DNA of 64,000 nucleotides from Pseudomonadota bacterium. Its GTDB lineage: Bacteria; Pseudomonadota; Gammaproteobacteria; Halothiobacillales; Halothiobacillaceae. The stretch is taken from NCBI GenBank assembly GCA_021801265.1, contig JAJYYE010000010.1:248001-312000 (forward strand). The letters are read 5' to 3'. The position numbers and the translations under genes are program-made. The notes beneath the pieces are model-generated. The model was not told where the DNA came from, ran no database searches, and saw only the letters and a program-made list of their open reading frames with translations. Below, in pieces: positions 20,051 through 41,701 of this stretch. Positions within the stretch are counted from its first letter, which is position 1. The number at the start of each line of letters is the position of its first letter.

Positions 20051-20800
20051 TCAACCTGGACCGTTCGCCAAGAGAAGCTCAATTAAGCGTAAGCCATTTG
20101 ATTTCAGTGCAATCAATGCATCCTCGTGTGACACGCACCATGCCTCGGCGAGCTTAACTGCCACGGCATTTGCTTCCCACGGCATCACATGTGCACCGCG
20201 CACCCTCGCAAATGGCCCATCGCTCTCTGAGACCACCCGGTCACGCGGCATCAGTGCTGCCAGCTTTCGTCCATTGGCAGACTCCATCATTGCAGGCCCA
20301 ACGCTGAACCAACATCCGGATTCAGCTGCGCGCCGAAGTGACGAAGGCGAGTCAGTAAACCAATGAAGAACAGCTGTGCCGAAGCCAGGGTTCGCATCAA
20401 GAATATCTAGAACCTTTTCAGCAGCCGCCCGAGAATGGATGTTGAGAACTCGCCCTCCCAATCGTGCGCAGTTTTCTACAACGGATTTAAATATGTGCGT
20501 TTGAAGTTCAAAGTGCTGGCTATAATGTGCGGAGCCATCTAGGCCAATTTCACCGACCCCTATGCAAGCCTCCATTTGCAAAAGCAGCATCTTCAATTCG
20601 CCATGCTTTTTATCTGCGACTTCTGGGTGGAGACCAGGGGAAATGAAAACCTTCTGCGTGGCAGCCAGAACTCTTGAAGTTGCTGCGTATGCCCTTGGAC
20701 TCGTCGTCACCAGCCACACAAACTCGGTTCGTTGCAGAGTTTCAATGTAGACTTGCTTCGCGTCTGAATAGAGGTCCAGGTGGCAGTGAAAATCCATCAC
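20051..20800 (-). CDS. qatD: QatD: TatD-like metal-dependent nuclease of the Qat anti-phage system
   Basis: The 249-residue protein has the TatD metallohydrolase ligands: FHCHLD at the N-terminus, a Glu in IGVGEIGLDG (about 91-100), His in NIHSRAA and LHWFTD, and Asp in SESDGPF. TatD enzymes cut DNA from the 3' end. In Qat the four genes qatABCD are jointly needed for phage defence. Here the gene is last in the order A-B-C-D and its start overlaps the qatC stop by 4 bases (ATGA). TatD proteins also occur as housekeeping enzymes, but the neighbours leave little doubt. Confidence 0.93.
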   Translation of the reverse strand: MMDFHCHLDLYSDAKQVYIETLQRTEFVWLVTTSPRAYAATSRVLAATQKVFISPGLHPEVADKKHGELKMLLLQMEACIGVGEIGLDGSAHYSQHFELQTHIFKSVVENCARLGGRVLNIHSRAAAEKVLDILDANPGFGTAVLHWFTDSPSSLRRAAESGCWFSVGPAMMESANGRKLAALMPRDRVVSESDGPFARVRGAHVMPWEANAVAVKLAEAWCVSHEDALIALKSNGLRLIELLLANGPG

Positions 20801-24782: not shown

Positions 24783-24875
24783 AGCGGCTCCTTTGGTTTT
24801 GTGACCGACACATTGAGGGCGAAGGGCTCGCAATCATCCTGGTAAGCGAATGGTTGGCGTCTGTAGGCTGCAATC

Positions 24876-26954
24876 TCAGGCCCTGAAAATATCGACTTTA
24901 GTTTCAAGACACTTGCGCAGGCTCAAGTCGTTGGCTCCCACCTCAAACCAGCCCCCCGGCTTTTGGTAAAAATCCAGGCCTCGCCCGATTTTGATGACCC
25001 AACCGTTGTCCAGGCGGATCTCCCGATCGTGCATGTTCGGGTTGAGCTTGACCTCAAGCTCCATATCCATCTCGAGCAGGCTCTGCTTCAACTCATCCAG
25101 CTTCTCCGCAATATCTGCAAACTGCGTGTTGTCGTCGTATCCAGTGATGAGATTGATTTTCTTCACTGTACCGGCCTTCAAAACGCACTCACAAAAGCGG
25201 ACGAAATTCTGGATCTGGTGCTGGAGTCGAATGTACGGGTCTTCAATGACGACCGTCTTTGCTCCTCGCAGGTAGGGACCAATGATCGACTCATAGCTGT
25301 GGCCGATGTCACCGTACATGATCGTATAGTGCCGCTCCACCAACTCATCTGGCACAACCACGGGGGAGACGATAGGGGCCGTTGATTCGACCCTGATAGC
25401 AACCTCGGGCACTCGCGGCTCTTGAATGGCCTCTGCCGCAACGTCACGCTCAGGCGCAAGCTTTTCGTTGAGCTGTCGCCTCAACGGTTGCTGTGTGGCT
25501 GGAGCAGCCTTGGACTCAGGGCAATAGACAACAACCTCTTGTCCTTGTGTATTCAGGAATGAAAGATCGATACGCGCAAACTCATCATCGGGTTTGCGTT
25601 TATTCATCTGCTCCTTCACACGCCGACGGCACTCGACTGCGTAGGCAACATATTCTTCGAACTCTTCATCGGTTGGAGAACCTGTAGGGTGAAGAATCTT
25701 CAGGAAGGCACAGACGGTCTTCTTGATGCCTTTTTCATCACGGCCCTCAACGCTCTTTCCAAGTCGGATGCGTTTGCTGACTTCTTCGTACCGATTGGTG
25801 TGCTTGAACTGGTAGTGGAATGCTTCTGCCAAATAGTCGGTGATGAACCCGTAGCTACTGGTTAGAAATTCACTGCTGTTTTTTGGCATTTCCCAGCCAG
25901 GTATGTAGGCTGCGAATCGATCCATGATCGCCAGATCAAACTCAGCGGGCAATGGCTGGAAAAGATCATGCTCAACCGAGTTGACCACTTGACTGATGGA
26001 TAGATCGAAGTTGCCAACAAAGCTCAGGCTGGCATCAGCGATAACCTCTGCGCCACGCGAGAAGCGGCCATTCGCCATGAAATCTTTCATGATTTGAATG
26101 GTGTCTGGATCTTTGACTTTGATGCCGCCCACCTCGTCGAAAGCCACGGTATCCCAAAATCCAACCAGTCCAACCTTACGGCGTGCGTTGTTGTAGAACA
26201 GCGCCGACTTGGTCGCCTGACCACCTGAAATCAATGTGGCGTAGGGCGAAAATTCACTAAAGAAATACGACTTCCCAGTGCCGCGTGGCCCAAGCTCAAT
26301 ATAGTTGTAATTGGGTTCGACGAGGGCTGCCAAGCGCGCAATAAAGTGCATCTGCACGCGCTTCGACAACTTTGTCGGTTCCAGACCAACAGTGCGCAGA
26401 ATCGCCGCAATCCACTCGTCACGGGTGAATTGAGTACGGCCTTCACAGTAGCGGTCAAAATCAAAGCGGCTGATCTGGATAGGGCGCAGGTCTTCAATGT
26501 AAAACGCGTAGTCGTCTTCTTCGATCGCGTTATGTGCCAGCGTCACCTCAGCCCAAATGCCGCCCTCCAATAGGCGGTCGTTGTCTCGGTAGAACTTCTC
26601 GCCAATAGCGATGCGCTGTGAATTAAAGTTCTCCAGCGATGCCCAGTGACATTTTTCCTTCTCGACATACCGAACATGGACCTTGTCGATAAAGCGGTGC
26701 TTGCCTTTGGTTGCCACCTTTGACTGCGCGGCATTGGCCTCGTCAGGCTTAACATAGTTGTCTTGCAGGCTGGCGAGCACCGCCTCCATACCTGAATTCA
26801 TTTCGGCTTGATCATCACTCGCACAAAAGCGCGCAAGCAAAAACTCCAGGACGAAAGTCGGGACGTTAGTTCCCTTCTTAATTCGATGGAGTAAATCCTT
26901 GCGCAGCACCTTGCCATCAAAGGTGGCTGTCAGCTTTTGGTCGAGTTCATTCAT
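24876..26954 (-). CDS. brxL: BrxL-type AAA+ protein with C-terminal MIT_C domain
   Basis: BrxL is a BREX effector that forms MCM-like AAA+ rings on DNA. The 692 residues have the BrxL N-terminal region, Walker A GPRGTGKS (222-229), Walker B FWDTVAFDEVGG (266-277) and an arginine-finger region AIMDRFAAYIPGWEMPK (342-358). After a disordered linker (about 480-540) the C-terminus (543-692) is not the Lon-like domain of characterised BrxL proteins. It matches the MIT_C (phospholipase D-like) domain of MITD1-type proteins, with IEDPYIR (570-576) and HDREIRLDNGWVIKIGRGLD (642-661). The start lies 5 bases after pglZ. Function of the swapped domain is unknown; membrane or nucleic-acid binding is possible. 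Confidence 0.9.
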   Translation of the reverse strand: MNELDQKLTATFDGKVLRKDLLHRIKKGTNVPTFVLEFLLARFCASDDQAEMNSGMEAVLASLQDNYVKPDEANAAQSKVATKGKHRFIDKVHVRYVEKEKCHWASLENFNSQRIAIGEKFYRDNDRLLEGGIWAEVTLAHNAIEEDDYAFYIEDLRPIQISRFDFDRYCEGRTQFTRDEWIAAILRTVGLEPTKLSKRVQMHFIARLAALVEPNYNYIELGPRGTGKSYFFSEFSPYATLISGGQATKSALFYNNARRKVGLVGFWDTVAFDEVGGIKVKDPDTIQIMKDFMANGRFSRGAEVIADASLSFVGNFDLSISQVVNSVEHDLFQPLPAEFDLAIMDRFAAYIPGWEMPKNSSEFLTSSYGFITDYLAEAFHYQFKHTNRYEEVSKRIRLGKSVEGRDEKGIKKTVCAFLKILHPTGSPTDEEFEEYVAYAVECRRRVKEQMNKRKPDDEFARIDLSFLNTQGQEVVVYCPESKAAPATQQPLRRQLNEKLAPERDVAAEAIQEPRVPEVAIRVESTAPIVSPVVVPDELVERHYTIMYGDIGHSYESIIGPYLRGAKTVVIEDPYIRLQHQIQNFVRFCECVLKAGTVKKINLITGYDDNTQFADIAEKLDELKQSLLEMDMELEVKLNPNMHDREIRLDNGWVIKIGRGLDFYQKPGGWFEVGANDLSLRKCLETKVDIFRA

Positions 26955-26959: not shown

Positions 26960-29482
26960 CTACACCGCATAGTCGGTTACCAGGTCAAGTTGGCAGTACA
27001 CCGTATAAGTCGTTGGATGAAAAGCCTTTATCTTGAATTTCCCCTCGAAATCCATTTGCATCTTGATCGTGACTTGAACCTTGTCACCTGGTTTTAAAGA
27101 CAAAGTCCCCGTTGCAGGATTCACTGCACCACCGGCCTTTGCTTCGCCCACAACTTCACCCTTGCTGTCGTGTGCCTCCAGCAAAATTTCGAACTCGTTT
27201 TCAGTTGAGAACATGTCTGCCGTTTCTACCGCAAGGTCAATCACCGGCATACGTGTGGTGATGGCTTTGGCACCATTCTTGTAGCTCATCGCCACAGATA
27301 CTTTATGCAGTGTCGGTTGATTGGAAGTTTTCAACTGCATCGTGATGACCGGCACCACGCATTCCTGCAAAGAAATGCCGCCGTGATAATAGAGCAAACC
27401 ACTTCGATAAGCGGCCAGCGAATGTGGCGCAGCGAACTTGGCAAAGTCACCGCGAATGCCCATCTTCTCTGCTGAAACGACCAGGTGATTGCCGTCGCCA
27501 GCACCATCGCCGAGCGCACACCGGTCATGAATGCCAATCCAGTTGCCAGCGGGTTTGTTGCAGACATCGCCCGCGCCAGCGTGGGTGTTCATGAAGAAGC
27601 CGTGATCGGTTGCGATCACGACCTCATGAAAGCCACGCTCTTTCAGCTTATGAATTGCGACGCGAATGCGTTTGAGCGCATTGGTAATCTCTGCAGGAGC
27701 GGTGTCGGGGTGGTTCTCAAAGTGGCTATCAATCTCCACCGCGCGCAACACCAACAAATCGGTTTCAGGCGAGAAATCGAAACGTCCGCGAACAAAGTCT
27801 TCCAGACGTCCCTCTTCAAAGCGCTGGCCGTACTTCTTCCGAAACACGTCCATGCGCTGGGTAACCGTTTCCACCACCTGGTCACCCAGCATTGGCACCA
27901 AGCTCTGTTCGTCATTCTTGATGCGAAGCTGCTGACCAGCCCCGGGCAACAAGCTGGCCATGCCTACTGGCGTGATGCTTGGTAGCTGCGCCATTGCAGC
28001 TTGCACTTCAACTTGTCCGTCTTCCGTCAACTGCCGTTCCAGCGCCACGCCCAATTCATAGCGAAGCGCATCGATCATGAAGTACGCCACCTTGTGGCCG
28101 TTCTTTTGCAGCTTGGGCGCTACGATGCGGTCGAACACATCAGCATTCGATAGCTGGCCGGCCGGTGGCCATCCGTTTTGTTCCACATGGCGAGTAAAGA
28201 TCAACTGCACCTTCTCTACCAGCTTGCCGTACTGCTTACGCACCTGCTGCTTGACCGGCGTCATGACACCTTGCGCGTCTTGCCAGTCGTAATCGCTAAC
28301 TGCTTGTTCGAACTCACGATGCAAGCGATCAGCTTCACGCAGGCTGCTCACGTAAAAGGCCAGCAGCACATCAAGATTGCGTGCGTTGTCTGAGAGTTGC
28401 CGCTCCATGTCATCGCAGGTTTGCAGCAGTTCTGTGGCCGATCGAATCAAATCCCACTGGGCACGGCTTTCGCCTTTGCCTGTCCACACCGATTGCTGAT
28501 GGCGCTCCGATATACTCCGCACCCGGTCGATGTCATCACGCAAGATGCCTTCGATCGCCCGGCTCAAAAACGTGCGTTCCTCAAACGGGAAGGTGTCGCG
28601 ATCACCCAAATCAGACCAGCCACCAAATTGGCTGACCAGATTAAGGTCCTTCTCAATTTCTTCCGCACGGTCGATATAGACACTCTGCGTGCGGCGATCA
28701 TTGCGCAGCAGGTCGCACAGGTATTCAATCAAGGGCTTCGCTTGCGTTTCTGCGCGCGGTACATCGCTCAAACTGGCAGGCAATGCGCCAGGCAGATCAA
28801 ACACAAACTCGCTGAACAAGACAAAGCGCCAGAGCTCATTGGCCACCGAGTCCCATGTCTTGCCCCGGGTCTTCAGTGTCAGGCCCATGCTGTTGCGAAG
28901 CAAATCACGCGCCTCTGTCACCCAGCTATCGCTGCCTTTCAATGCGGTCTGCTGCGCATCGTTTGGCACAAGCAGCGCAAACAGAATGTCGCGGGCGGAC
29001 TCGACTGCCAGTAGCGCACGCAAGTTGGGCCAGCCCAAGCCGCCGCCAATCGCATCCACCACTGCAAAGCTCGGTGATGCGTCCTGCTCAAAGATGGCCC
29101 GGATGGCCGTCGTGTGATCTGGCTTCGCCTTAAGGCACAGGCTCTCGAAGCTGTCGCCATCGCCTTCGGGGAAAATGGCTCCTGCTGCGGCAATAGGCGC
29201 GAACGGGTCAGCCTGGCGCTCCTCATCGTTCTGCGGTGCCTTAGTAGGCACATAGACCAAGATGCCAGAGAGCTGTCGATCGATCACATCACGCAAGCCT
29301 TGCATTGCCGCAACCCGACTCTCGATGCTGCTCTTTGAAGCATCCACAACCAGCAGCTTTTCGTCGGCCAAACCGTTGCAGACATCGTGGTAGTGCCCGG
29401 CAGGGTCATACACCACCAGGCTGCCTGTCTTTTGTAACCGGGGTCTGAGTATCTTGTTCTGGATGAAGTCGGCAATGCTCAC
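26960..29482 (-). CDS. pglZ: BREX-1 alkaline-phosphatase-like protein PglZ
   Basis: PglZ is a core BREX component that binds PglX and has a metal-dependent phosphatase or nuclease fold. In the 840-residue product the N-terminal region (1-460) is helical. The alkaline-phosphatase domain has KVAYFMIDALRYE (464-476) and VVIATDHGFFMN (621-632), which carry metal ligands, and the protein ends in a beta-rich domain (about 700-840). Its start overlaps the stop of the DUF262 gene by 4 bases, so it is translated from the same message. Confidence 0.95.
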   Translation of the reverse strand: MSIADFIQNKILRPRLQKTGSLVVYDPAGHYHDVCNGLADEKLLVVDASKSSIESRVAAMQGLRDVIDRQLSGILVYVPTKAPQNDEERQADPFAPIAAAGAIFPEGDGDSFESLCLKAKPDHTTAIRAIFEQDASPSFAVVDAIGGGLGWPNLRALLAVESARDILFALLVPNDAQQTALKGSDSWVTEARDLLRNSMGLTLKTRGKTWDSVANELWRFVLFSEFVFDLPGALPASLSDVPRAETQAKPLIEYLCDLLRNDRRTQSVYIDRAEEIEKDLNLVSQFGGWSDLGDRDTFPFEERTFLSRAIEGILRDDIDRVRSISERHQQSVWTGKGESRAQWDLIRSATELLQTCDDMERQLSDNARNLDVLLAFYVSSLREADRLHREFEQAVSDYDWQDAQGVMTPVKQQVRKQYGKLVEKVQLIFTRHVEQNGWPPAGQLSNADVFDRIVAPKLQKNGHKVAYFMIDALRYELGVALERQLTEDGQVEVQAAMAQLPSITPVGMASLLPGAGQQLRIKNDEQSLVPMLGDQVVETVTQRMDVFRKKYGQRFEEGRLEDFVRGRFDFSPETDLLVLRAVEIDSHFENHPDTAPAEITNALKRIRVAIHKLKERGFHEVVIATDHGFFMNTHAGAGDVCNKPAGNWIGIHDRCALGDGAGDGNHLVVSAEKMGIRGDFAKFAAPHSLAAYRSGLLYYHGGISLQECVVPVITMQLKTSNQPTLHKVSVAMSYKNGAKAITTRMPVIDLAVETADMFSTENEFEILLEAHDSKGEVVGEAKAGGAVNPATGTLSLKPGDKVQVTIKMQMDFEGKFKIKAFHPTTYTVYCQLDLVTDYAV

Positions 29483-31341
29483 AGCGCCACCCCAGCACTT
29501 TCTTGCTTCTCAGCGAGATGTGTAGCCCACAAAGTCTCCAGCGCGGGACTATTCCCTTCAGCAAGCGCATTCATTGCCGTAACGACTAGATTGGCTCGAT
29601 CTCGCAGGAATTCGTTGAAATCGGCCTCTAGCTTCTGTTTGAACGCATCGCCATCTAAGCCCGAGTAGTGTGCTTTTGAAAGCAGGTCGTATGAAATCAA
29701 GTGGGACTTCAAACGCTCGCACACTACTTTTTCATCGGCCCACTGCACACGCTCTTCGAGATACTCCAGCGGATCCTTACGGCCAATTATGCGGTTAGTC
29801 TTCCAGGTGATCAGCGCGCAGTTCAGCGCCCGGTAACTCGGAATTCCAGCTTCTGAGAGCAATGAATCCGGGAATACATGGTGGTACTCGCGCTTTTGAA
29901 TACTCTCGTAGGTTGCAGTCTTGTGGTCTGCGAAGTCGATCGCACCAAGATAGGTCGTTACCGCCAAGATCGCGCGAGCTTCGATACCCGCCGCCTTCGG
30001 CCAGCCAGCAGCCATCAGCGAATCCACATCGGCCAAAGGAAATTCAGAACGGTTCAGTGCCGGCACCGTCGTCAGCTCGGCATCAGTAAAACCAGGGTTC
30101 TTCAACACAGCTTTGATGGCCTTGAAGTCTGCAAACGCACGCGACGCTGCCGTGTTTTCGTAACGATCAGTGAAGAAGGCAGACCACAGGTAGCGGCGTA
30201 AAAGTTTCTCCGCTTTGGCTAGAAAATCACCGTAGTCGGGAATCAACTCATACGCAGCGGCAATCACCGCTAAAACGGCATTCGTCGGCAAACGCGCCTC
30301 GTCAAATACACGCTGGCTGTCCAGAAACGACGCCATGCGTTCAAGCCCACGTTCCAACTTCGGCCAGTTGGCAAGCAACTGCTTTTTGTCCATCTCAATC
30401 ATGCCGCGCGTATTGGGCAACTTTTCCTGCAGTAGCGCCGAGGTAGACAAAATCAGATCAGAGACATTGCCGTAGCGTCTGGCCGTCGGACACTTCTCAT
30501 TCAGGCTGGCTTCGAGCGCGTGGAGCGACTTCTCTGCCACGCTTTCAACCTCTGCCACAATGATGTCGTACAGAGATAATGGCTTGCTGTTGGTGTTCAT
30601 GTTGATGAACACCTGCAAAGCCACATCCTTGCTGGTATCCGCTGGCAACGAAAGGTAGGGAAGGTTGAAATGTGTCACCCGCTCTCGCAGCGCAGTGATG
30701 TCCGCCTTGATCTTGTCGCGCGTGGCGGTATAAGTCTTGTACTTAGATAGCGCATCCGGGTCTGTATCCGCCGGCTCCAATGGTTTGGTTGCATCGTTCA
30801 ACCAAAGGTCGATTTCTGTCGAAATGTCACCAGGACGAAGCAAATTCACAGGGAGCAAACCACGCTTGAAACACTGCGCAGGTTCCTCCGCCCAACGCGG
30901 CATCCGCAGTTGGTGCTTGTTGACCCAGCGAGGAATGCAGCGGATTTCTACTTCCGAGCCCGACTTGTTTTCGCCACGATCAAACTGCGGCAGGTAGACG
31001 AAGAACGTCTCCCATTCGTAGTTGTTATGCATCGAACGCCAAAACGCAGTCAGACGTTGCTGGCCATCTAATAGATGCTGAGTGACGGTGCCTGGCTGAG
31101 CAGGATCTGAGCTTGCGATGTAGCGCGATTCAAATTTTTCTTGCCCTGCGACTTCAAGGGCCAAAGTCACACCCACCGGCAGGTTGTTGATGATGGTGTT
31201 CAGAAAGCTAGCGATTCGACCACGATCCCACGCTTCAAAGCGTTGAAAACGAGGCAATTTCACCATGCCTTGCTGAATGTTCTGAAACCAGACGCCCAGA
31301 GTTCTGTCCTGTGCCTTGCTTGATTGTTGCATGATGCTCAT
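29479..31341 (-). CDS. GmrSD/BrxU-like DUF262-DUF1524 nuclease within the BREX operon
   Basis: The 620-residue protein has the DUF262 ParB-like nucleotide-binding motif LLDGQQRLT (90-98) at its N-terminus. Near its C-terminus (about 484-525) is a DUF1524 His-Asn nuclease motif (YHHVFP followed by LITWKTNR). This is the fused layout of GmrSD, a type IV restriction enzyme against glucosylated DNA, and of BrxU, the BREX-associated enzyme. It overlaps pglX2 and pglZ by 4 bases on each side, so it is expressed as a BREX component. Modified-DNA cleavage is the likely role, by family knowledge. In the described E. fergusonii locus brxU precedes pglX, so the position here differs. Confidence 0.88.
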   Translation of the reverse strand: MSIMQQSSKAQDRTLGVWFQNIQQGMVKLPRFQRFEAWDRGRIASFLNTIINNLPVGVTLALEVAGQEKFESRYIASSDPAQPGTVTQHLLDGQQRLTAFWRSMHNNYEWETFFVYLPQFDRGENKSGSEVEIRCIPRWVNKHQLRMPRWAEEPAQCFKRGLLPVNLLRPGDISTEIDLWLNDATKPLEPADTDPDALSKYKTYTATRDKIKADITALRERVTHFNLPYLSLPADTSKDVALQVFINMNTNSKPLSLYDIIVAEVESVAEKSLHALEASLNEKCPTARRYGNVSDLILSTSALLQEKLPNTRGMIEMDKKQLLANWPKLERGLERMASFLDSQRVFDEARLPTNAVLAVIAAAYELIPDYGDFLAKAEKLLRRYLWSAFFTDRYENTAASRAFADFKAIKAVLKNPGFTDAELTTVPALNRSEFPLADVDSLMAAGWPKAAGIEARAILAVTTYLGAIDFADHKTATYESIQKREYHHVFPDSLLSEAGIPSYRALNCALITWKTNRIIGRKDPLEYLEERVQWADEKVVCERLKSHLISYDLLSKAHYSGLDGDAFKQKLEADFNEFLRDRANLVVTAMNALAEGNSPALETLWATHLAEKQESAGVAL

Positions 31342-33254
31342 TCGGCTGCTCCCGCTTTCTTTTTGGTGCGTGTTTTCTTAGGCGCTGCCTCTGGCTCAAC
31401 GTATAGATCTTCCAACCCATGTGTGATGGCGAGGGACTTGTCGGTCTTGCACTTCTCGCGCACACGATCAGGCCAGTAAGCCATTGCGAGGTGCGCCCAG
31501 TCGTAGTCGCCTTTTTCCAGCTTGGTCCAGGTGTCTTTCAAGACCTTTTGCCAGGGCTTGTGGCGGAACAGCGGCCAGAGGGGCGCGGCGGTGATTTGCA
31601 CACCGTCGTCGTGGTTGGGCTGGTAGTTTGGTGCAATCTTGAGCAAGGTGTCGCGCAGGTCGGTCAGCTCTTGCTCGAAGGTTTGCAACGTTTCGTACTG
31701 CTTTTCCTCGTCACGAGAGCGGCCGCTGCCCTTCATACGCAACTCTGCACATTCACGGCTGACTTGCGTCAGTTTCCCGTTGGGGCCGTCGAGAAAATCA
31801 TTCACCGCTGTGAACAGCGTTTGATTATTCAAGGATGGGTAATAGACCCAGAGCTTGTAGCTACCGGAGGCGGTGGACAGCGGCCAATAGATGGGCGCTT
31901 TGCGGCGACTCTTGGAATAGCGTTGCAGGTGGAAGGCGAAGAAGTCCCGCTGCAGCCAGCGGCGCACGTTATCTGGAACGGATACATCAACCCGGTTCAA
32001 CACTTCCTCAACTAAGTAAGCAAGATCATGGGGGTGCCCTATGTCATGTACCAAAATGCCAGAATTGGCATGGAAAGGCTCAGCACCATCCTGCAACATG
32101 CCGGGGCTCTTAGCGGGCAGCGGATCGAAGGGTTCTGGGAATGGCGGCTGCGGACGCTCCCCAGTCGCTAATCGCAAATCGAAACGACCAAACACTACTC
32201 CAACGGCCCAAGAGAGTATTGTTGAAAAATCATCAATCGGCGTCTCATCAATTTCGCCTTCGTCTTCAGCCTTCTCGTCAAGCTCATCGATCTCGCCGAC
32301 TACTTGTGGCAAAGAAGCAGCAGCCTTATCAACATCTGAAAAACCATAGAGGTCAAATACGATTTCATCTATTCTTTTCAGTACGTCAGAAAGGCTTTCC
32401 GATATTGCTTGCCTATCAAAACCATCGAGCCGGTGACGCAATTGCAATGGAAGAAGGAACGCTTTGGAACACTCATCTACAGATGATTCGATATATCTCG
32501 TTCTCCAGCCCAGTTTGGCTAACTCGCCAAGCCTTTTCTTGGTTGATTCATCAAGCGACGGAAAGGGAACTCGCTGGATTAGCCCCACTTCGTACTGAGC
32601 ACCGACTACCCGACCGGCGAGCATCATTACGAATGCGTCGAAGGCCGTGCTATTAAAAATGGCCAGGCTGGCAAGCTTTTCATCAGGAATGGGGAACGCC
32701 ATTTTCCCTGCAACGCTAAAAATGCATCCTTCTGGTACTGCCTGTGAAGAGAACCTATAGCCTCTCAGCGGCCAAGTGACTCCCGGCAAAGTGAAATAAT
32801 TTTTCTCGGTTTCACCAAGCATCCAGACATTTGAACGAATTCCACCTCTCTCGTTAAGGTTGTTCTTAATTTCCACACCATTATTTTTCCAACGGACGCG
32901 ACAGAATATTTCTTGATAAAACGGTTTGGACGCCCCTCCTTTGGCATAAGGCCGCCAAGCAGAAATATGATCAAGCACCTCCCACTGAAGTCTTACAAAC
33001 CTGAAATCATCAGCGGTTGCAAGACCTTGCTTAACAGCTCTCTGTCCGCTTTCAAACGGGCCAAATTTTGCAAAACATCTGCGCACATCCTGACTAGCCC
33101 AATAGGCAAAAGGACTTCCTGGCAACTCCGAAAATACATCTGAATCGACGGAATACATGTTGCTCTTGCCCGAGCCAGACCGAAACGCAGTGGCCGCCGC
33201 AGCTAAGTCCTCTTTTTTGTCAGTAGCAGCGATAGATCGAATGAAAATAGTCAT
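31338..33254 (-). CDS. pglX2: PglX C-terminal half (target recognition part) as a separate protein
   Basis: The 638-residue product begins MTIFIRSIAATDKKEDLAAA and contains the target-recognition and C-terminal spacer regions seen downstream of the methyltransferase core in full-length PglX. Examples are FSVAGKMAFPIPDEKLASLA (about 183-202) and VVGAQYEVGLIQRVPFP. A helical stretch with TLQTFEQELTDLRDTLLKIA lies near 535-555, and the tail is basic (KKTRTKKKAGAAE). No methyltransferase motif is present. It overlaps the upstream gene by 4 bases (ATGA), so reading is coupled. It probably acts only with the N-terminal protein. Confidence 0.85.
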   Translation of the reverse strand: MTIFIRSIAATDKKEDLAAAATAFRSGSGKSNMYSVDSDVFSELPGSPFAYWASQDVRRCFAKFGPFESGQRAVKQGLATADDFRFVRLQWEVLDHISAWRPYAKGGASKPFYQEIFCRVRWKNNGVEIKNNLNERGGIRSNVWMLGETEKNYFTLPGVTWPLRGYRFSSQAVPEGCIFSVAGKMAFPIPDEKLASLAIFNSTAFDAFVMMLAGRVVGAQYEVGLIQRVPFPSLDESTKKRLGELAKLGWRTRYIESSVDECSKAFLLPLQLRHRLDGFDRQAISESLSDVLKRIDEIVFDLYGFSDVDKAAASLPQVVGEIDELDEKAEDEGEIDETPIDDFSTILSWAVGVVFGRFDLRLATGERPQPPFPEPFDPLPAKSPGMLQDGAEPFHANSGILVHDIGHPHDLAYLVEEVLNRVDVSVPDNVRRWLQRDFFAFHLQRYSKSRRKAPIYWPLSTASGSYKLWVYYPSLNNQTLFTAVNDFLDGPNGKLTQVSRECAELRMKGSGRSRDEEKQYETLQTFEQELTDLRDTLLKIAPNYQPNHDDGVQITAAPLWPLFRHKPWQKVLKDTWTKLEKGDYDWAHLAMAYWPDRVREKCKTDKSLAITHGLEDLYVEPEAAPKKTRTKKKAGAAE

Positions 33255-35152
33255 GCCTGCTTCCTAAACGTATATGCCATTGCCTCAACCATCGCGTCAT
33301 CCATCACACCAAGCCCCAAGTCAGCAAGGATTTCGGGCTCAGCAATGCCGAGCACAATTTCTTCCCGCCACTTTTGAAAACTGGTGAGGAAAAAGCAGGT
33401 GCGCGAGGTGATGGCACCAATGCGCCCGCCGCCACGCAGTAGCTGAAGGCCGCGCTCTACCATGATGGCCATAAGATCGTTCTTGCTGCGTGGATAGGCT
33501 TTGGCGAGTTGATCTTTGGTGTTTGCAGCCAATGCTCCAAATGGTGGGTTCATCACCACGACATCGAACACCTCACGACACAGATCGATGAGCCGAAGCC
33601 CTTGCAAAGCATCCTGTGCAAATAGTCGCCCTTGGTAGGTGGACTTTGCGGCCTGGGCGAATTCAGTGAGTGCCGTGCGCATACGAGCCTCCGCCTGCTG
33701 CCAGCTCTCCTGCTCTTGTGCGGCAAACAGGCCAGTGCCTTTGCCCACATAGACCTGGCGGATCAAGTTCGGCAACTCGCGCTCGACCTGGAGCAGCACG
33801 CCCATTTCCGGCAGACCTTTGAGCAATTGCAGCGTCTTTTCGAATAGCTCGCCGTCGCGCTGGTCGAGGTTGGCGGCAAACTGCTGGCGCAGTTCTCGCT
33901 CCGCCGGTGGCGCGACGGCCGCAACCACATGCCCCTTACCAATGCATGGGCGATCTTTGGCTTTCACGCTGGCATCGTGCCAGGCACGCTGTGCCCGCAG
34001 CCACAGGGCTAAGGTGGCAATCTGCGCGGCGCGCGGATCGATGTCTACGCCGTAGATGTTGTGTTCGATGATCAGGCGTGGCACATCGCGCGCAAAGGTC
34101 GCTTCGTCTTCGTAGGTCTGACTCAGTGGCTTGAGCGCAGCTTGGGGCTGAGTGGAATCATCCAAGGAGCCAGGGCCATGTTGCTGTTCCCATGCCCATG
34201 CCTCAAGGTAAATCTCGACAAACAGATCAAATGCATACAGGCCGAAGTGCATAGAACCGCAGGCCGGGTCCAGCAGCTTCAGGGTGCGCGGGTCGCGTAG
34301 TTTGATGGCCGCTTGCGGTTGCTCATCGGGCTTGACCAGCAAGTATTGGCAGCGCTCGCGCAGATCCGTTTGCCCGCCAGTGGCGTTAAACCAGAGACGC
34401 CCCAGCGTGTTATCGACCAAAAACTCCACCACATAGCGCGGCGTGAAGAACTGGTTTCGCACGGCAAGCTCGCGGCTATTGCGTGGAGCCTGGCTGGCAT
34501 CGCGCATGGCTTTGCGTTCTTCTTTGGAGTTGAAGTATTGGTAGATCCAGCCGATGGTTTCGTCTGCGCCCCAAAGCGACTCAATCTCAAAGTGGTTGAG
34601 CTCATCCAATAGCGCGCGCAGGGCGGTCTCGCGCGGGAACAGCAAGCCGTTTGCGGCGTAACGATAGAACAGGGCGGGTAGCTCTTGTGCGAGTTCATCA
34701 AATACGCTGAATAGATAAATCTGGTACGCCTGGCCGGTTTCACCCAGGGCAGTACCAGCGATCTTGCTGTAGAGCTGGTAGCCACGCGATTGGTAGCCTT
34801 TGCTGACCGACTCGATCAGCTGCCCACGCGCTTCCATCATCAACAGTGCTGCCAAACGGTTGAGCACGGTAAAAGCTTGCTCGCGCACCATACGGTCGAG
34901 CACCGCGATGCGGTGATCGGTGTCGTCTACTTCTGCGCCCAGGTAGTGCGCCAGGGTTTGGCGCAGCACTTCGGCCGTGTGACGCTGGCGGTCGTCCAGA
35001 TGGGTGAGTCGGGCCATGGGCGTGACTTCACCGGTCTTGGGGTCTAGGCCATAGGTTTGCTGAAGCTGGATACTGAACTCATCGGACAGCAAGCTGCGAC
35101 AACTATTAACCAGCTTTTGCAGGCGACCTCGTGTGGATTGATCGAAGGCCAT
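33251..35152 (-). CDS. pglX1: PglX N-terminal half: BREX-1 N6-adenine methyltransferase core
   Basis: This is the host-protecting methyltransferase of BREX. The 633 residues include the helical N-domain, a FFTPRYVVEFLVD motif (235-247), SAM-binding motif I DPACGSMHFGLYAFD (295-309) and the catalytic NPPFG (535-539) of N6-adenine enzymes. The protein stops shortly after the core (AMAYTFRKQA), where normal PglX of about 1200 residues would run into the recognition domain; that part is the next gene. The two together have 1271 residues. The clean coding sequence on both sides of the ATGA junction argues for a true gene split, not a recent frameshift, but sequencing error cannot be excluded. Confidence 0.9.
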   Translation of the reverse strand: MAFDQSTRGRLQKLVNSCRSLLSDEFSIQLQQTYGLDPKTGEVTPMARLTHLDDRQRHTAEVLRQTLAHYLGAEVDDTDHRIAVLDRMVREQAFTVLNRLAALLMMEARGQLIESVSKGYQSRGYQLYSKIAGTALGETGQAYQIYLFSVFDELAQELPALFYRYAANGLLFPRETALRALLDELNHFEIESLWGADETIGWIYQYFNSKEERKAMRDASQAPRNSRELAVRNQFFTPRYVVEFLVDNTLGRLWFNATGGQTDLRERCQYLLVKPDEQPQAAIKLRDPRTLKLLDPACGSMHFGLYAFDLFVEIYLEAWAWEQQHGPGSLDDSTQPQAALKPLSQTYEDEATFARDVPRLIIEHNIYGVDIDPRAAQIATLALWLRAQRAWHDASVKAKDRPCIGKGHVVAAVAPPAERELRQQFAANLDQRDGELFEKTLQLLKGLPEMGVLLQVERELPNLIRQVYVGKGTGLFAAQEQESWQQAEARMRTALTEFAQAAKSTYQGRLFAQDALQGLRLIDLCREVFDVVVMNPPFGALAANTKDQLAKAYPRSKNDLMAIMVERGLQLLRGGGRIGAITSRTCFFLTSFQKWREEIVLGIAEPEILADLGLGVMDDAMVEAMAYTFRKQA

Positions 35153-35157: not shown

Positions 35158-38100
35158 TTATTCCCCCGCGTCCTGCAGTTCGAGGTTGACGGCAAAAGCG
35201 TGGGCATATTTCAGTTCGCCACGCAGCTGTTGCAGTTGCGTGATCAGCGCATCCAGGTCGTCCATCGTGGTGATCTTGGTACGCGCCTTGATGCTGCGTG
35301 CGACGGGCTGCTTGATCTCTGGTGTCTCACCGGGCGGCACTTCAGCCTGAGCACGTTCCAGTTCTTCCTTGATGCGCTGCTGTCCCAAGCGCTCAATGCG
35401 GTGCTTGAGCGATTGCACCTGCGACTGCAGTTCGTAGTCCTTGTTGAGCATGGTGGTGAGGCCCGCCAGATCGGGTGCTACATCCACAATCAGGCGCTCA
35501 AGGTTGCCCAGTAGTTCGGTTTGCTCTTGCTGGGTAAGTTTGATCCACTCCGGTACGCGCTTGAGGTCAACCTCGGCCTCTTTGATGCGTGTTTTGAGCA
35601 GGTCTTGCATCGCAATCACGGTATCGCGAATGCGGGCGCGAATGGTGGTGAGGCTGGTGCTGAAATCGGCCGCAAAACGATAGAAGTCGGCCTGCTGCAG
35701 GCGCTCCTCGATGAGACTGAGTGCCTCAGCCAACTCTTCTTTCAGCGTGGCCAGCAAGGCCACGTTCGGCAGGTTGGCAATGGCCGTACAGTGCTGGCGC
35801 AGATCGCGCAGCGTTTGCTCCAGGCCTTGCTCCAGCTTGAGTTTGACTTCGGCGGCCCATTTGAGACTTTCGAACAGCTCGGACTGCTCGTTGCCCAAGC
35901 GGCGCGGCGCATCCGAAGCATCGGTGAGCAGCACGTCGTTAATCTCGTGCGTGAGGTTTTGCAGTCGATCTACACCTGGCAGGTTGAGGCCGCGCAGCTT
36001 CTCTGTGAGCGGGCCGTATTGGTGCTGCAGTTGCGGAAAGAGCTTGGTAGTGACCTTGCTGATGTCGTCTTCCAACGGCACGACGGTGTCGCCAGTGAGT
36101 TCGGTCAACCGAGTTGCAGCGCGCGCCAGTACGTCGTTGGACGGACGATCGCCACCACGCAACGAAATACCGATGCTCTTGAAGGTGTTGTTGGTCTTGA
36201 TGGCGTCGATGGCTTGCTGGCCGTTGACGGTGACTTCGCGTCCCGCCACCTTGAGCTTGATCTCACCCGCCAGCAGCATGGCTGCCACCAGATAGCGCAG
36301 GGTGTCTGCCGACCAACCAAAGGGCGCATCGGCAAAGACGTCGGTCAGGCGTTTACCATCCACGGTGCCGTTGCGGTCAATGTAGTCACGGATGCTCACC
36401 ATGGCCAAGTGGTCGGTGCGAATGCTGTGTCGTCCACTTTGGGTTTGCACAAGGTTCAGCGGATCGAGCGCGCTGGTGATGCCCGACATATTGCCGACCC
36501 GCAGGAATTTTTCAGCAAGTTCGGTTCCGGCGCGCACTGGCGCTTCTGCGTAGCGATCGAAAACTTGTTCAGCGACTTCGCTCAGGTGCTTGCGTGCGGC
36601 ATCCAGCAATTCGGTCGCCAGCGTATCGACCGCAACAACCTGGCCTCGAAAGATGAACGAGCCTTGCAACAGGCTGCGCTGAATCTGCGCCCGCAGTTTG
36701 GTGCTGAGGTGTTCAGCTCGGTCGGCCTGGCCGTTGCAGTATTCGCGGATTTCTTGATCCGGATCGCTGCGGTAGCGGTTGGCGATTTCTCGGCAGCGGT
36801 GGATGTCGGCCGTCAGTTCGTCCATTTCCGGCGTGGTGCGGCCGACCAGGTAGATGTTGAACTTGGACGAGTTGTGACGCGACTCATCAGTGAGCCGGGT
36901 ACGTGCGTTGTCGATTTCTTTGGGATCAACCAGCTCCACAATGGTTTGGATCTGGTTGCGCTCACCCGCCAACGATGCGGGTACGTTGCCTGCCGATTGC
37001 GCCTTGAGGCCGGTGGATACGGCGTAGGAGCCGTGCAATTGGGTGGCGGGCAATGGTGCGTAGACGCTGGTCAATGCTTCGTTAACGATGCGACGCAACT
37101 CAACGCCGCGCAGTGCGACTTGACTGCGTTCCTGCTCAATGTCGTTGAGCTTTTCACTGAAGAAACAAAGGTTGCCATCTTGTTCGCCAAAAGGAACGAT
37201 GGGGTCGTTGATCAGGTCTTCGACTGCCTTGGCCACGACGTCTGCTTGTGATGCCCCAGAGATACTGGCGTGCATCAGGCTGGTGACGTTTTGGCGGGTG
37301 ATGGGCAGGTTGCCCAGGATTTGCAGAACAGCGACTGTCTTGGCGATGTTTTGATGCAACTCGGAATGCGAGAAGCGAATCTTGGTGGCTTTCTCTACCG
37401 ATGCGTGCAACGAGGCGAAGGCGCGTTTGATGTCTTTGTCCAGCGCATCAAACAGCGTGACCGTGGTGGCGAGCCAGCCAACGGCTTGTTCTGCCACAGC
37501 GGGTTTGCCTTCAGAGCCGTCGATCAGAATGTCTTGCACCACCTTGATCGCCGAGCGCAGGCCGATGCCACCCGTAGACTTGGCCAGTGCGCCGAGCAAG
37601 TGCAGCAGAATGTCGAAGTGCGCAGGCAGGAACGGGTAGAGATCGACAAAGGTCTTGCGATCGAAATCGACGCCATAGACGCGCGCATCGACAAGCTTGG
37701 TGTTCTGGCGCAGCTGCTGGCCATACTGATCAAACAACCCGCCCAATTCAGCTTCCGCTGCTGACGACTTGCCCAACAGCCGCGTGTAGCAAATTTCCTT
37801 GATGTCGTTGGATTCAAGGGCGATTTGAATCGGAAAGCGGTCATTGAGCTTGAAGAGCTCTGGCGAGTTGAGGGCAGCCTTCGCGTCATCAGCCGTGAGC
37901 GTTTGCTGCGCCGTACCAACAATCCACACCTTGCCGTCGCCGATGTTTTTCAGGTTTTTCGCCAGACCATCGAGGTTCAAAATCAGGTTGGGCCGAGGGC
38001 CTACGTACTGACCTACTTCATCGATGATGAAGATGATGTATTCCTTGCCCGATGCCTCGCGGGCAATCTCCAGCATTTCCCGCACACGGTCGTTTTCGAA

Positions 38101-38811
38101 GACGACGATTTCACTGGATTCAGTCGTGAACGAGGTGGGCGTCTTGAAAAGCGTGGGGTACAACTTATGAGCGATCTCAGGAATTAGGCTGTCGACCACC
38201 AACTCGTCATTGCGGTAGTTGTTCCAGTCTTCACCGCCAGCAGCTTCTTTGAATGCGTCCAGGAATTCGTTGTAGCGGCCTTCCTTCTTGAGCCTGCGTT
38301 CCAGCGCGGCGACTTTGAGATTGCGCGAATAGCCCGCCCATTGCAGCACCTTATAGAACAGTACCGTCGACACATCTTCCATGGTCGCACCGGCGACCTG
38401 TTCGCTGGCCAGGTCCAACATCAGCACTGCAGCCGGAAAGCGCTTGGCTACGTTCGACAACAATGATTTGGTTTGCTGGCGCTTGAGACGATCTTGAAGG
38501 TGCTGAATGAATGGGACGCCATCAATGGTGATGCGATCGTCAAATGCCAAGCCCAGATACTTGGTGAACGAGCTCTTACCGGAACCATAGAAGCCTGACA
38601 CCCAGACGCCGACTTCATTTTCGCCACCAATATCCATGGCGGCTTCCATTTTGAGCAGGAGATTCTCGAACTGCTGGTCGATGCTGTCGGTGACCACATA
38701 TTCGGAGATTTCCGATTTCAGGCGCGCCTCTTGTGACACGCCATAGGTGATGACCTTTTCAATGCTGCGATTGATGTTCTTGCTGGGGTCGAAGAGTTTT
38801 TTGATCGTCAT
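35158..38811 (-). CDS. brxC: BREX ATPase BrxC
   Basis: The 1217-residue core BREX protein is a large P-loop ATPase needed for methylation and restriction. It starts MTIKKLFDPSKNINRSIEKV, with Walker A GFYGSGKS (73-80) and a Walker B-like IIFIIDEVGQYVG (near 260). Long helical regions occupy the C-terminal third. ATG 38811 is chosen because GAGG lies 7 bases upstream; an ATG at 38823 overlaps that site. It follows brxB after 15 bases. Confidence 0.95.
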   Translation of the reverse strand: MTIKKLFDPSKNINRSIEKVITYGVSQEARLKSEISEYVVTDSIDQQFENLLLKMEAAMDIGGENEVGVWVSGFYGSGKSSFTKYLGLAFDDRITIDGVPFIQHLQDRLKRQQTKSLLSNVAKRFPAAVLMLDLASEQVAGATMEDVSTVLFYKVLQWAGYSRNLKVAALERRLKKEGRYNEFLDAFKEAAGGEDWNNYRNDELVVDSLIPEIAHKLYPTLFKTPTSFTTESSEIVVFENDRVREMLEIAREASGKEYIIFIIDEVGQYVGPRPNLILNLDGLAKNLKNIGDGKVWIVGTAQQTLTADDAKAALNSPELFKLNDRFPIQIALESNDIKEICYTRLLGKSSAAEAELGGLFDQYGQQLRQNTKLVDARVYGVDFDRKTFVDLYPFLPAHFDILLHLLGALAKSTGGIGLRSAIKVVQDILIDGSEGKPAVAEQAVGWLATTVTLFDALDKDIKRAFASLHASVEKATKIRFSHSELHQNIAKTVAVLQILGNLPITRQNVTSLMHASISGASQADVVAKAVEDLINDPIVPFGEQDGNLCFFSEKLNDIEQERSQVALRGVELRRIVNEALTSVYAPLPATQLHGSYAVSTGLKAQSAGNVPASLAGERNQIQTIVELVDPKEIDNARTRLTDESRHNSSKFNIYLVGRTTPEMDELTADIHRCREIANRYRSDPDQEIREYCNGQADRAEHLSTKLRAQIQRSLLQGSFIFRGQVVAVDTLATELLDAARKHLSEVAEQVFDRYAEAPVRAGTELAEKFLRVGNMSGITSALDPLNLVQTQSGRHSIRTDHLAMVSIRDYIDRNGTVDGKRLTDVFADAPFGWSADTLRYLVAAMLLAGEIKLKVAGREVTVNGQQAIDAIKTNNTFKSIGISLRGGDRPSNDVLARAATRLTELTGDTVVPLEDDISKVTTKLFPQLQHQYGPLTEKLRGLNLPGVDRLQNLTHEINDVLLTDASDAPRRLGNEQSELFESLKWAAEVKLKLEQGLEQTLRDLRQHCTAIANLPNVALLATLKEELAEALSLIEERLQQADFYRFAADFSTSLTTIRARIRDTVIAMQDLLKTRIKEAEVDLKRVPEWIKLTQQEQTELLGNLERLIVDVAPDLAGLTTMLNKDYELQSQVQSLKHRIERLGQQRIKEELERAQAEVPPGETPEIKQPVARSIKARTKITTMDDLDALITQLQQLRGELKYAHAFAVNLELQDAGE

Positions 38812-38826
38812 GTTTTGCCTCAATGA

Positions 38827-39399
38827 TTAGCCGCCGACGTGGACAGAGCGGTAGTTGCCATCGTCGGGGTAGAACCCCAGGAATTTGAGTCGGGTCTTGC
38901 CGGTGCGCACGCCAGGGTAGAAGAACACTGTGGGCACATGGAACTTGCCTTGCAGCTTGCCTTCGATGACACCGATGCGTGTGTAGGGATGCAGCGCCTC
39001 AAGGTCGGTGACCAGCAAAATGGCCTTAGGCTTGCCCTCAAGCTCGGCCAGCTTGGCTTCGATGCGTGCCTGCAACGCGCCATTACTGATGGCATTAGCG
39101 AGCGACGCATTGGTCTTGTCCCATGCCAACGGCGCTTTCTGATCGGCTGCGAGCCAGATCTTGCGAAGCGGTGCCTTCTCGATAATGTCTGCAACATGCT
39201 CGGCGATCGAAAAGGTTTCGACTTCCCAGCCTTCGTTGCGCAGTCGGTGCATCCACGCGGGTGTTTCGCGCTTCACATTGAGAATCTGATTCGGTGGGAA
39301 AACCAAGTAGAAAATAGGCTCGAAGCTGGCATGGCCGAACTCGCGCCCCTGCTTGATTCGCTCCATCAACTCATTGAAATCAGCTTTGAGCGATGACAT
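38827..39399 (-). CDS. brxB: BREX protein BrxB (DUF1788)
   Basis: The 190-residue protein is a typical BrxB: FNELMERIKQGREFGHASFE, PIFYLVFPPNQILNV and the C-terminal FYPGVRTGKTRLKFLGFYPD are family motifs. Its biochemical role is not settled, though it is required for BREX methylation and defence. Its start overlaps brxA by 20 bases. Confidence 0.95.
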   Translation of the reverse strand: MSSLKADFNELMERIKQGREFGHASFEPIFYLVFPPNQILNVKRETPAWMHRLRNEGWEVETFSIAEHVADIIEKAPLRKIWLAADQKAPLAWDKTNASLANAISNGALQARIEAKLAELEGKPKAILLVTDLEALHPYTRIGVIEGKLQGKFHVPTVFFYPGVRTGKTRLKFLGFYPDDGNYRSVHVGG

Positions 39400-40165
39400 C
39401 GATCAGTTCCTCCATGCTTTTATAGGTCCACCCGATATGCACGACATCGGAGGCGGCCTGGAAAATGAGCAGGCCTTGTAATGACAAACGTTTTAGTTGG
39501 TCTCGGACGTCGGCACGTTCCAGCCCGAAGAGATCCCAGTCGGAGCTTGAAACAATTTGGTTGTCGCCAAGACCGCTGAACTTCAAGTCGTAGGCCAAGT
39601 AGGCGGCGACCCTTGGCAATATGCGATACGCAGCAATCGAGCGCTGGTTGCGGCCCGTGGTAGTTAGCAACCCATAGTCGGCGCAGCAGCCCATCAAATA
39701 CGATGAGATGCGCTTGATCGTGGTCTCAGACCATGGCTTTTGTGTTTTTCCTTCGCGCACGCTGTTGGCAACAAAGGTGCGTGCGTCTTCCAGTTGAAGG
39801 TCATTTCGCCCGGCTGAATAGCGCGCCCAGTAAACCTCTCGGACAAAATCCGCCAACACAAGATTGGCGCGCGCCGTATAGATAAAGAGTAGCTGATTGA
39901 GCTCGGCGGCCGTGAAGCGATCAACCAGGGACTTGAGGCGCGCGGGAATGTACGGGTCGCGCATATAGCGTGGGGCAAAGCACTCAGCAACAATATTGCG
40001 TAGGCGCCTTGCCGTTACCAAAGGAAAACGACCCGATGCCAGCGAGGCCTCATAGAGCTGTGACGCACTCATGCCAGGCTGATAAATCTGTAGCAGTTGC
40101 CTTGTTTCTTCTAGGAGACCCAGCCCTGCTTGTAGTTGGGTGGTGTAGTAGCGCTGCTGACTCAC
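39380..40165 (-). CDS. brxA: BREX protein BrxA (DUF1819)
   Basis: The 261-residue BrxA has YYTTQLQAGLGLLEETRQLL at its N-terminus and a helical body with RYMRDPYIPARLKSLVDRFT. E. coli-type BrxA binds DNA and is needed for restriction. It overlaps the preceding BrxE-like gene by 4 bases. Confidence 0.95.
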   Translation of the reverse strand: MSQQRYYTTQLQAGLGLLEETRQLLQIYQPGMSASQLYEASLASGRFPLVTARRLRNIVAECFAPRYMRDPYIPARLKSLVDRFTAAELNQLLFIYTARANLVLADFVREVYWARYSAGRNDLQLEDARTFVANSVREGKTQKPWSETTIKRISSYLMGCCADYGLLTTTGRNQRSIAAYRILPRVAAYLAYDLKFSGLGDNQIVSSSDWDLFGLERADVRDQLKRLSLQGLLIFQAASDVVHIGWTYKSMEELIDVIAQS

Positions 40166-40665
40166 TCAACCTCCCGAACGTAGGGGAACGTCTGAATTCC
40201 GGAGGTGAAGGCGGCACAATAAAAGCCCGCAGCACGTTTCAGGTCGGCGTTGATGTCTTGACTCATCTGCCCCAGCGAAACGGGACCCGGCGACGCGGAT
40301 TCTGCTTTTCCCGCCAATTCAGCCAGGCGCGCCAGCGCCAACTCACGATTCGCCAATCTGTCTTGCACTGTTTGAACAAACGTGGCGTCGTTAAGCGCAT
40401 CGGCCGATGCTTGCTCTAGTCCGATGGGCAAGCGAAAGAGGTGGTAGATACGACCAACACCAATGGCCTCGTCATGGACCTTTGCCGCCGCTGCCGTTGC
40501 CCCTTGGTATTGGGCCAGGAACAAAGAGCGATTGAATATCGGTGCCAAAAAAGCATCGGCTGTAGAACTGAAGAACTCGCAGCCCCACCAATTAGCCTGG
40601 CCCTTCTCTCCGAGGTAGCCAATCAGAACCCGGAGCTCTGCGATTGTTGTTGCGATAGTGTCCAT
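40162..40665 (-). CDS. BrxE-like BREX accessory protein
   Basis: The 167-residue protein shows LRVLIGYLGEKGQANWWGCEF at about 11-30 and a later block AKVHDEAIGVGRIYHLFRLP, the pattern I associate with the BrxE family, best known from other BREX types. ATG 40665 is preferred to a TTG at 40689 because AGGA lies 8 bases before it. It sits between brxR and brxA with a 4-base overlap at brxA. Function is unknown. Confidence 0.7.
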   Translation of the reverse strand: MDTIATTIAELRVLIGYLGEKGQANWWGCEFFSSTADAFLAPIFNRSLFLAQYQGATAAAAKVHDEAIGVGRIYHLFRLPIGLEQASADALNDATFVQTVQDRLANRELALARLAELAGKAESASPGPVSLGQMSQDINADLKRAAGFYCAAFTSGIQTFPYVREVE

Positions 40666-40710
40666 CAAAAGTCCTAAATCTTTTTTCAACTGTGCGGCTG
40701 GGCAGCACGG

Positions 40711-41619
40711 TTAATAATTTGTCTTCGCCTCGTCCGGATGCGGCTCTCTGTATCCTGGTGCTAACAATGCGTTCTTGACGCCATACAGTGCTAAGTAATC
40801 CTTCAGCCACAGTCTGTATTCAGGGCCTTGCAAACTGTGGTCTGGCGAGGCATCTACACTCCAGCGCAGAAGCATGTAGCCAGCGACGGCCGCACGGACG
40901 CACATACGAATCGAACCGTCTTTCATCCCGTAGTCCATTCGAATGATCTCGGGACGGCTCAAGCGCGGGTGCGGTACCAAGTCCAACTCCACGATCCGGG
41001 TCCATTGGATGTCGTTGTCTGGGCGCTCGTTGGCCTTGGGTTCCTCATCAACCAAGGTCGGTGCTTCGATACGGGTGACGACAAAGTCTCGGAACTCGCC
41101 GCTCTTGCGATCAAAGGCCCGGACGTGCCAGCGCAGGCCGGTGTCGACCAAGGCGAAGGGAACGATCACCCGTTCGGACTGGCCGCTGCTCATCGAGTGG
41201 TAGCGAATGGCTACCGGGCGCTTGGCGTGAATCGCGCGACAGATAGGTGCAAGAACATCCATGCGGGGACTGCTCAGTACAGTAGGTGGCTCGCAGGGAA
41301 TCATGGGCTGCGATTCGCCATTCACACCATCACCAAACCCAAGCGAAAGTGCTGACAGAACTCGCTGTGGTGCATGGTCGAACAAGGGCGCGAACGTTTT
41401 GCCAATCCGGTAGATCTTGTTGCTGCCGTCGAACTCGATGTTCTTTGACGCTACTTCTCGATACAGCGCCAAGTCCCGAGTAGCTGCCGCAGGTGCTATA
41501 CCGAAGCGGTTTGCCAAGTCAGGCCGCCCAACTTCACCTAGGAAGTACAGACGGAAGTCGATATACGACAAACGCTCGCGTTGGGCATGACTCAAACTTT
41601 CAACACGCTGAGGGTGCAT
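40711..41619 (-). CDS. brxR: BREX regulator BrxR (winged helix plus WYL domain)
   Basis: BrxR-type proteins repress BREX operons and respond to a ligand through the WYL domain. The 302-residue product has an N-terminal winged helix (LGEVGRPDLANRFGIAPAAA, about 27-46), a WYL domain (RPVAIRYHSMSSGQSERVI, about 135-153, then WHVRAFDRKSGEFRDF) and a C-terminal WCX-like domain. ATG 41619 has GGAG 9 bases before it; the frame is open to 41640. It is the first gene of the operon, just after the promoter described at 41702-41744. Confidence 0.93.
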   Translation of the reverse strand: MHPQRVESLSHAQRERLSYIDFRLYFLGEVGRPDLANRFGIAPAAATRDLALYREVASKNIEFDGSNKIYRIGKTFAPLFDHAPQRVLSALSLGFGDGVNGESQPMIPCEPPTVLSSPRMDVLAPICRAIHAKRPVAIRYHSMSSGQSERVIVPFALVDTGLRWHVRAFDRKSGEFRDFVVTRIEAPTLVDEEPKANERPDNDIQWTRIVELDLVPHPRLSRPEIIRMDYGMKDGSIRMCVRAAVAGYMLLRWSVDASPDHSLQGPEYRLWLKDYLALYGVKNALLAPGYREPHPDEAKTNY

Positions 41620-41701
41620 AGTCAAAGACTCCTCATCCACGAGAGACGACCGAAAGACAGCAAAAATCGGATTGACTTTTCATCATCTCACTACTTATAT
41701 C

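Follow-up and report, generated by a model that had tools for sequence, protein, structure and literature searches.

The window (the whole 64,000-nucleotide stretch of DNA analysed here) contains a type-1 BREX operon whose BrxL ends in a MIT_C domain, predicted to have the phospholipase D (PLD) fold, in place of a Lon-like domain. As judged from sequence, this domain is most likely either a PLD-type effector acting on DNA or a module for dimerisation, carried by an AAA+ ring loaded on DNA, and the reading that we prefer, and hold to be rather probable, is that paired half-sites of this PLD-superfamily domain nick, cut or hold DNA on the ring. The BrxL-MIT_C architecture is known and frequent, not new; what remains new is how closely the domain resembles MITD1, with the pocket retained.

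The operon consists of brxL and the gene set from pglZ to the WYL-domain gene. brxL occupies the positions given in the first-pass annotation, on the minus strand, and is encoded with brxC, pglX, pglZ, brxA and brxB, which lie upstream on the same strand. The features of the gene and of the operon are as follows.

24876..26954, minus strand: brxL, 692 aa, with BrxL_N, AAA+ ATPase and MIT_C; PADLOC BrxL model PDLC02508 at residues 1-691
24882..25304, minus strand: MIT_C / PLD-like C-terminal domain, residues 551-691 (Pfam PF16565, E 4.6e-51)
24972..25031, minus strand: HDREIRLD...RGLD motif, putative HxRx4D PLD-type site, residues 642-661 (from the sequence, its conservation and a weak profile register)
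25305..25568, minus strand: linker, residues 463-550, from the Pfam domain bounds
26960..29482, minus strand: pglZ (PADLOC PglZ, E 0; Pfam PglZ domain)
29479..31341, minus strand: GmrSD-like (DUF262) protein in the accessory slot (Pfam GmrSD_N, E 3.1e-20)
31338..33254, minus strand: PglX/BrxX methyltransferase, C-terminal half (PADLOC, NCBIfam)
33251..35152, minus strand: PglX/BrxX methyltransferase, N-terminal half (PADLOC, NCBIfam)
35158..38823, minus strand: brxC (NCBIfam BREX_BrxC above cut-off; PADLOC)
38827..39399, minus strand: brxB (PADLOC BrxB, E 1.4e-117)
39380..40165, minus strand: brxA (PADLOC BrxA, E 1.5e-136)
40162..40689, minus strand: brxE-family gene (NCBIfam BrxE_fam above cut-off)
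40711..41640, minus strand: WYL-domain gene, probable regulator (Pfam WYL)

Pfam places BrxL_N at residues 11-140 (E 3.6e-42) and BrxL_ATPase at residues 151-462 (E 4.5e-119). The C-terminal MIT_C domain, proposed in the first-pass annotation, was recovered by the PF16565 search over the full model (positions 1-142 of 142, 172.9 bits against a 25-bit cut-off), with identical bounds when the domain was recovered in the genome search. Within the 692-aa protein, IEDPYIR corresponds to residues 570-576 and HDREIRLDNGWVIKIGRGLD to residues 642-661. A MIT domain, as in MITD1 proper, was not among the Pfam matches of this BrxL. The same annotation had placed MIT_C where the characterised BrxL has a Lon-like domain, and the alignment agrees: the cryo-EM chains 8emc and 8emh are matched at residues 3-469 only (E 4.9e-121), with no Lon-like domain detected past residue 469 in that alignment. 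Two Lon-type BrxL proteins taken as controls (L168 and L174) align to 8emc almost end to end, and Lon_C was matched in all four Lon-type BrxL proteins scanned. In NCBIfam, the BrxL model TIGR02688 is passed (473.7 bits, cut-off 329.3) and the Lon-type model TIGR02653 is not reached (539.6 bits, cut-off 628.25), its match ending at residue 481. Since the PADLOC model spans residues 1-691, the architecture is already filed as BrxL in PADLOC. BrxL_N, BrxL_ATPase and MIT_C are all present in 40 of 40 proteins of an alignment of BrxL picked for bearing MIT_C (A1), so neither misassembly nor a frame error explains the fusion. Overall, the full-length model is poor (pLDDT 51, and below 50 at linker residues 490-535), and it was not used for placing the MIT_C domain.

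Searched against PDB sequences, the C-terminal 152 residues match the two MITD1 entries, 2ymb (E 3e-37) and 4a5z (E 5.3e-37), the next match having an E of 0.72. A profile of 28 bacterial MIT_C domains also finds MITD1 (E 3.4e-52), with two other matches up to E 10, the better at 0.049. An AlphaFold2 prediction for the domain, made from 24 sequences (pLDDT 82, pTM 0.77), has MITD1 as its top fold match in VIA-align (Z 19.6 over 150 residues). It is followed by yeast TDP1 (9.8), the ATP-dependent restriction enzyme SauUSI (9.4), the NgoAVII R protein (9.2) and NucT (8.8), and in lower rows by PLD3 (8.4), phosphatidylserine synthase (8.3), Nuc (7.8) and BfiI (7.6); rows within 1 of each other are tied, a Z of about 8 may be a common arrangement, and Z values of 8-10 show no function. 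In Foldseek, MITD1 is followed by phosphatidylserine synthase (E 1.4e-4), and then by vaccinia F13 and phospholipase D. A PLD fold is thus predicted for the domain, as the first-pass annotation had expected, and its PLD identity follows also from MITD1's own known fold.

The C-terminal domain of human MITD1 (4a5z, 2ymb) is 48% identical to that of the window BrxL and shares with it the H, R, DPYIR, Q, N, GW and RGLD. MITD1, for which membrane binding is reported, differs from the window BrxL in having this domain joined to a MIT domain that binds ESCRT-III.

The motif of PLD enzymes is H-x-K-x4-D, instead of which the window BrxL has HxRx4D (H642, R644, D649). These residues are nearly invariant: of 88 bacterial rows, 87 have H642, 86 have R644 and 79 have D649, while N takes the place of D649 in 7 rows, as in human MITD1, and S in 1. 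Also kept are P573 (86), Q580 (87), N583 (86), R658 (86), G659 (87), L660 (87) and D661 (87). The 88 rows result from thinning 125 bacterial rows at 90% identity, with gaps counted as misses and weak matches removed beforehand (L008-L011, L120-L125 and L140-L144, NsnC-like matches included). Viral loci, L108 (a broken frame), L106 and the gene copies L001, L107, L109 and L126 were left out as well, and L138 was entered as L160. In an hhalign comparison with PLDc_2, which is weak (probability 1.4, P 0.037) and was used for register alone, H-x-R and D fall on H-x-K and D, and DPYIR falls on TPYF; the PLDc_2 profile consisted of 15 domains, kept only when holding HxKx4D.

The first-pass annotation had treated this protein as an odd BrxL bearing a eukaryotic domain, a view that did not survive the architecture survey, in which MIT_C is widespread in bacterial BrxL. 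Among 398 genomes sampled from the window's phylum, BrxL_ATPase is above cut-off in 17, and 7 of these BrxL proteins end in MIT_C by our own HMM. The other 10, unmatched, were labelled Lon, which was confirmed by Lon_C in the 4 of them that were scanned. Genomes with MIT_C above cut-off in this sample are the same 7, the window's included, leaving out four weak matches below cut-off. In samples of three other phyla, each including its own centre genome, MIT_C is above cut-off in 3 of 251, 13 of 244 and 16 of 247 genomes, although some of these are not BrxL. The search of genome contigs gave 108 relatives, of which we kept 80, ranging from Pseudomonadota to Chloroflexota and Cyanobacteriota, and a BrxL core, at least partial, adjoins MIT_C in 79 of the 80 loci. 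MIT_C relatives were also found in 24 plasmid records and 14 IMG/VR loci, and no match was obtained in phage records.

Four of the loci have short MIT_C frames (177-271 aa) that are not at a contig end and are either truncated BrxL or stand-alone MIT_C. Three of them (L043, L049 and L074) contain 39-43 matched BrxL core residues and the fourth (L052) none.

The replacement has also been published. Rakesh and Krishnan 2026 (PMC12839542) describe BrxL with an HKD-endoDNase (HRD motif) replacing Lon in 1030 of 2913 type-1 BREX taxa, and credit the Menshen paper with an earlier report of it. The combination of PF16565 and BrxL is listed among BREX Pfams in an earlier study, as cited in a 2025 genomics paper (PMC12715929). 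Because place, PLD type and HxR motif are the same, we take this HKD-endoDNase to be the MIT_C domain, an identity judged from its description in that paper and not from its sequences. As described there, those proteins have the same core as the window BrxL, a PLD-fold domain in the place of Lon and the HRD motif, with no essential difference; the BrxL section of the paper makes no split into two classes. The terms "MITD1" and "MIT domain" are absent from its main text, and we found no paper comparing the BrxL domain with MITD1 itself in a literature search that was thin on subscription journals.

Other proteins share the domain in different settings. In Menshen-type loci, the NsnC-like proteins L162 and L164 combine a PADLOC NsnC match with a weak Pfam MIT_C match (E 2.7e-7 and 2.4e-5, the latter just under the curated cut-off) and, unlike the window fusion, are separate proteins of about 300 aa beside an OLD-type ATPase. 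A further protein of about 300 aa (L161), beside an NsnB-like ATPase, has a MIT_C match and no NsnC model match. In a Thiodictyon plasmid, a 947-aa dynamin-family GTPase (L094, 6634-9474) ends in MIT_C and shows weak LeoA/LeoBC matches. An IF2_N plus MIT_C protein was found once (L095), as was a 1065-aa protein with MIT_C followed by 17 Sel1 repeats (L160, 9113-12307). The locus of the latter also encodes a DpdE-like helicase and a DrmMI-like methylase and is possibly an undescribed defence arrangement.

For the window BrxL, we suggest that the N-terminal and AAA+ parts would form a ring that is loaded onto invading DNA with the help of ATP, by homology to Acinetobacter BrxL (8emc, 8emh; PMC10164562), with which these parts are shared at residues 3-469. 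The Acinetobacter protein ends in a Lon-like domain, reported in the same work to pair rings tail to tail around DNA while lying far from the DNA, whereas the window BrxL has MIT_C on a longer linker. The MIT_C domains, on their flexible linker, would then pair with one another, so that two H-x-R-x4-D half-sites would combine into a phosphodiesterase with a composite PLD site. PLD enzymes of the BfiI and Nuc types are dimers with two half-sites. Such a site could nick or cut the captured DNA, or hold a DNA end, and the longer linker, together with the very low confidence at residues 490-535, suggests that MIT_C could reach the DNA. In favour of this reading, besides the full-model MIT_C match, the fold neighbours, the conserved pocket, the weak PLDc_2 register and the published name HKD-endoDNase, the rest of the operon is DNA-acting, as seen in the BREX partners found, and three weak Pfam MIT_C matches adjoin NsnB-like ATPases, two of the three matching NsnC models. 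Against it stand the arginine in place of lysine in the motif, N or S at the D649 position in 8 of 88 rows, the small distance at which PLD3 and phosphatidylserine synthase follow in VIA-align, and the Foldseek order. Type-1 BREX PglZ is described as a metal-dependent nuclease and Salmonella BREX as able to defend without BrxL (PMC12205998), so defence need not involve a nuclease in BrxL.

The change of lysine to arginine would suit a non-catalytic MIT_C, one that is a dimerisation domain pairing the rings tail to tail as the Lon-like domain does, its pocket only binding a DNA phosphate or a nucleotide. The domain that was replaced does drive ring pairing in Acinetobacter (PMC10164562), and MITD1, reported as membrane-binding, keeps nearly identical pocket residues. 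On the other hand, dimerisation would not call for a pocket so well conserved (86-87 of 88 rows), and the linker has 88 residues here by Pfam bounds versus 29 (469-497) in the structure described in PMC10164562. We regard this alternative as unlikely, although it deserves to be kept in mind. One could also take the C-terminal domain for a decaying or misassembled fusion without a role, given the truncated or broken copies (L043, L049, L052 and L074) and L093, which is annotated in pieces. This idea is refuted by the strong conservation of the domain and motif, and with a BrxL core of at least 460 of 485 residues in 68 of the 80 loci, 8 of the remaining 12 being cut by a contig end, we find it scarcely credible.

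The first-pass annotation had also raised an action of this BrxL at the membrane, which rests on MITD1. The MITD1 domain is described as binding membranes, a binding on which abscission depends (PMC6015221), and PI(4,5)P2 is tabulated for MITD1 (PMC9776629). In addition, the next Foldseek matches past MITD1 include lipid enzymes, and one bacterial dynamin-family GTPase (L094) carries MIT_C. PI(4,5)P2 is, to our knowledge, not a usual bacterial lipid, which counts against MIT_C binding membrane lipids and bringing BrxL, or the captured DNA, to the cell membrane. Moreover, conservation falls on the residues of the PLD pocket, the BREX partners identified act on DNA, and the dynamin plus MIT_C fusion was met once only: it was found in 0 of 274 genomes of the class at E 1e-20, a search run without a positive control, and among 14 matching plasmid records only L094's own covers at least 80% of the fusion. 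Little supports the claim in a DNA-handling system that keeps H-x-R-x4-D and whose Z-ranked neighbours are DNA phosphodiesterases and restriction nucleases. A membrane role of BrxL is possible but unlikely, and recruitment through lipid binding seems to us quite improbable. For a DNA-acting PLD-type domain, which is the reading that we prefer, H642 and R644 offer a two-residue handle on a possible second nuclease, located in BrxL, in some BREX systems.

The MIT_C domains of BrxL form two classes. The 53 rows with more than 50% identity to the window domain (class I in this count) have a mean identity of 48% to human MITD1, compared with 32% for the remaining 35 rows. One protein of class II (L101) resembles the window BrxL in that its alignment to 8emc stops at the end of the ATPase and that it matches MITD1 instead. 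In the free tree, human MITD1 joins class I (97/97) on long branches. AU tests do not reject the 55 BrxL rows together without MITD1 (p 0.267), nor the 42 class I rows together without MITD1 (p 0.288). As these tests reject neither placement, we claim only the closeness of MITD1, and its nesting inside class I BrxL was dropped as a claim. Human MITD1 is the one eukaryotic sequence in the trees. In a core tree of 38 hand-picked rows, class I and class II each form one group (100/100), split by Lon types (87/76); the tree is without some other rows and without L166, a MIT_C BrxL whose branch in the first tree has a length of 10. We considered that Lon and MIT_C had been exchanged twice independently and did not uphold this, since a single MIT_C clade is not rejected (p-AU 0.221).

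We tentatively propose, as a possibility that we would not yet favour, that the C-terminal domain of the abscission factor MITD1 was captured from bacteria, where it would have been an anti-phage effector domain like that of the present BrxL type, with the PLD-type pocket retained. If this were true, MITD1 might bind or cleave a phosphodiester, either in midbody nucleic acid or in a lipid, and its ESCRT membrane function would be a reused defence nuclease. Among the bacteria searched, this domain, named for a cofactor of ESCRT, mostly forms the tail of a BREX restriction motor, where it probably acts on DNA. The nearest relatives found here for the MITD1 domain belong to phage defence, which makes its origin and a possible hidden activity testable.

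Several further defence genes are near the operon. Four genes directly downstream of brxL (20051-24833) match QatA, QatB, QatC and QatD. Among the 80 related loci, some of them cut short, Qat matches were seen in one (L035), likewise just after brxL. A pair matching AbiL, consisting of a RloB-like gene and an OLD-type ATPase (42379-44375), is a possible third defence unit in the island. The last 25 bases of a tRNA-Ser(gga) gene (17345-17435) recur at 84% in 51598-51622, 34 kb away, and an integrase gene (50232-51461) adjoins this partial repeat. The BREX, Qat and RloB/AbiL-like genes are likely inside a tRNA-borne island.

The slot between pglX and pglZ is variable, with a gap of more than 600 bases in 30 of the 55 loci (from 80) where it could be judged. 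Ten frames inserted in this slot were scanned, and GmrSD, Fic, an AAA_21 ATPase, Schlafen, DuOB with DUF488 and an unnamed 535-aa family are among them. Of 49 class I loci (from L013-L092) that could be judged, 24 have PglX/BrxX in a single frame and 25 have it in two, the window having the split form. With separate frames in 25 of 49 loci and a single frame in 24, a split PglX was rejected as a mark of the class.
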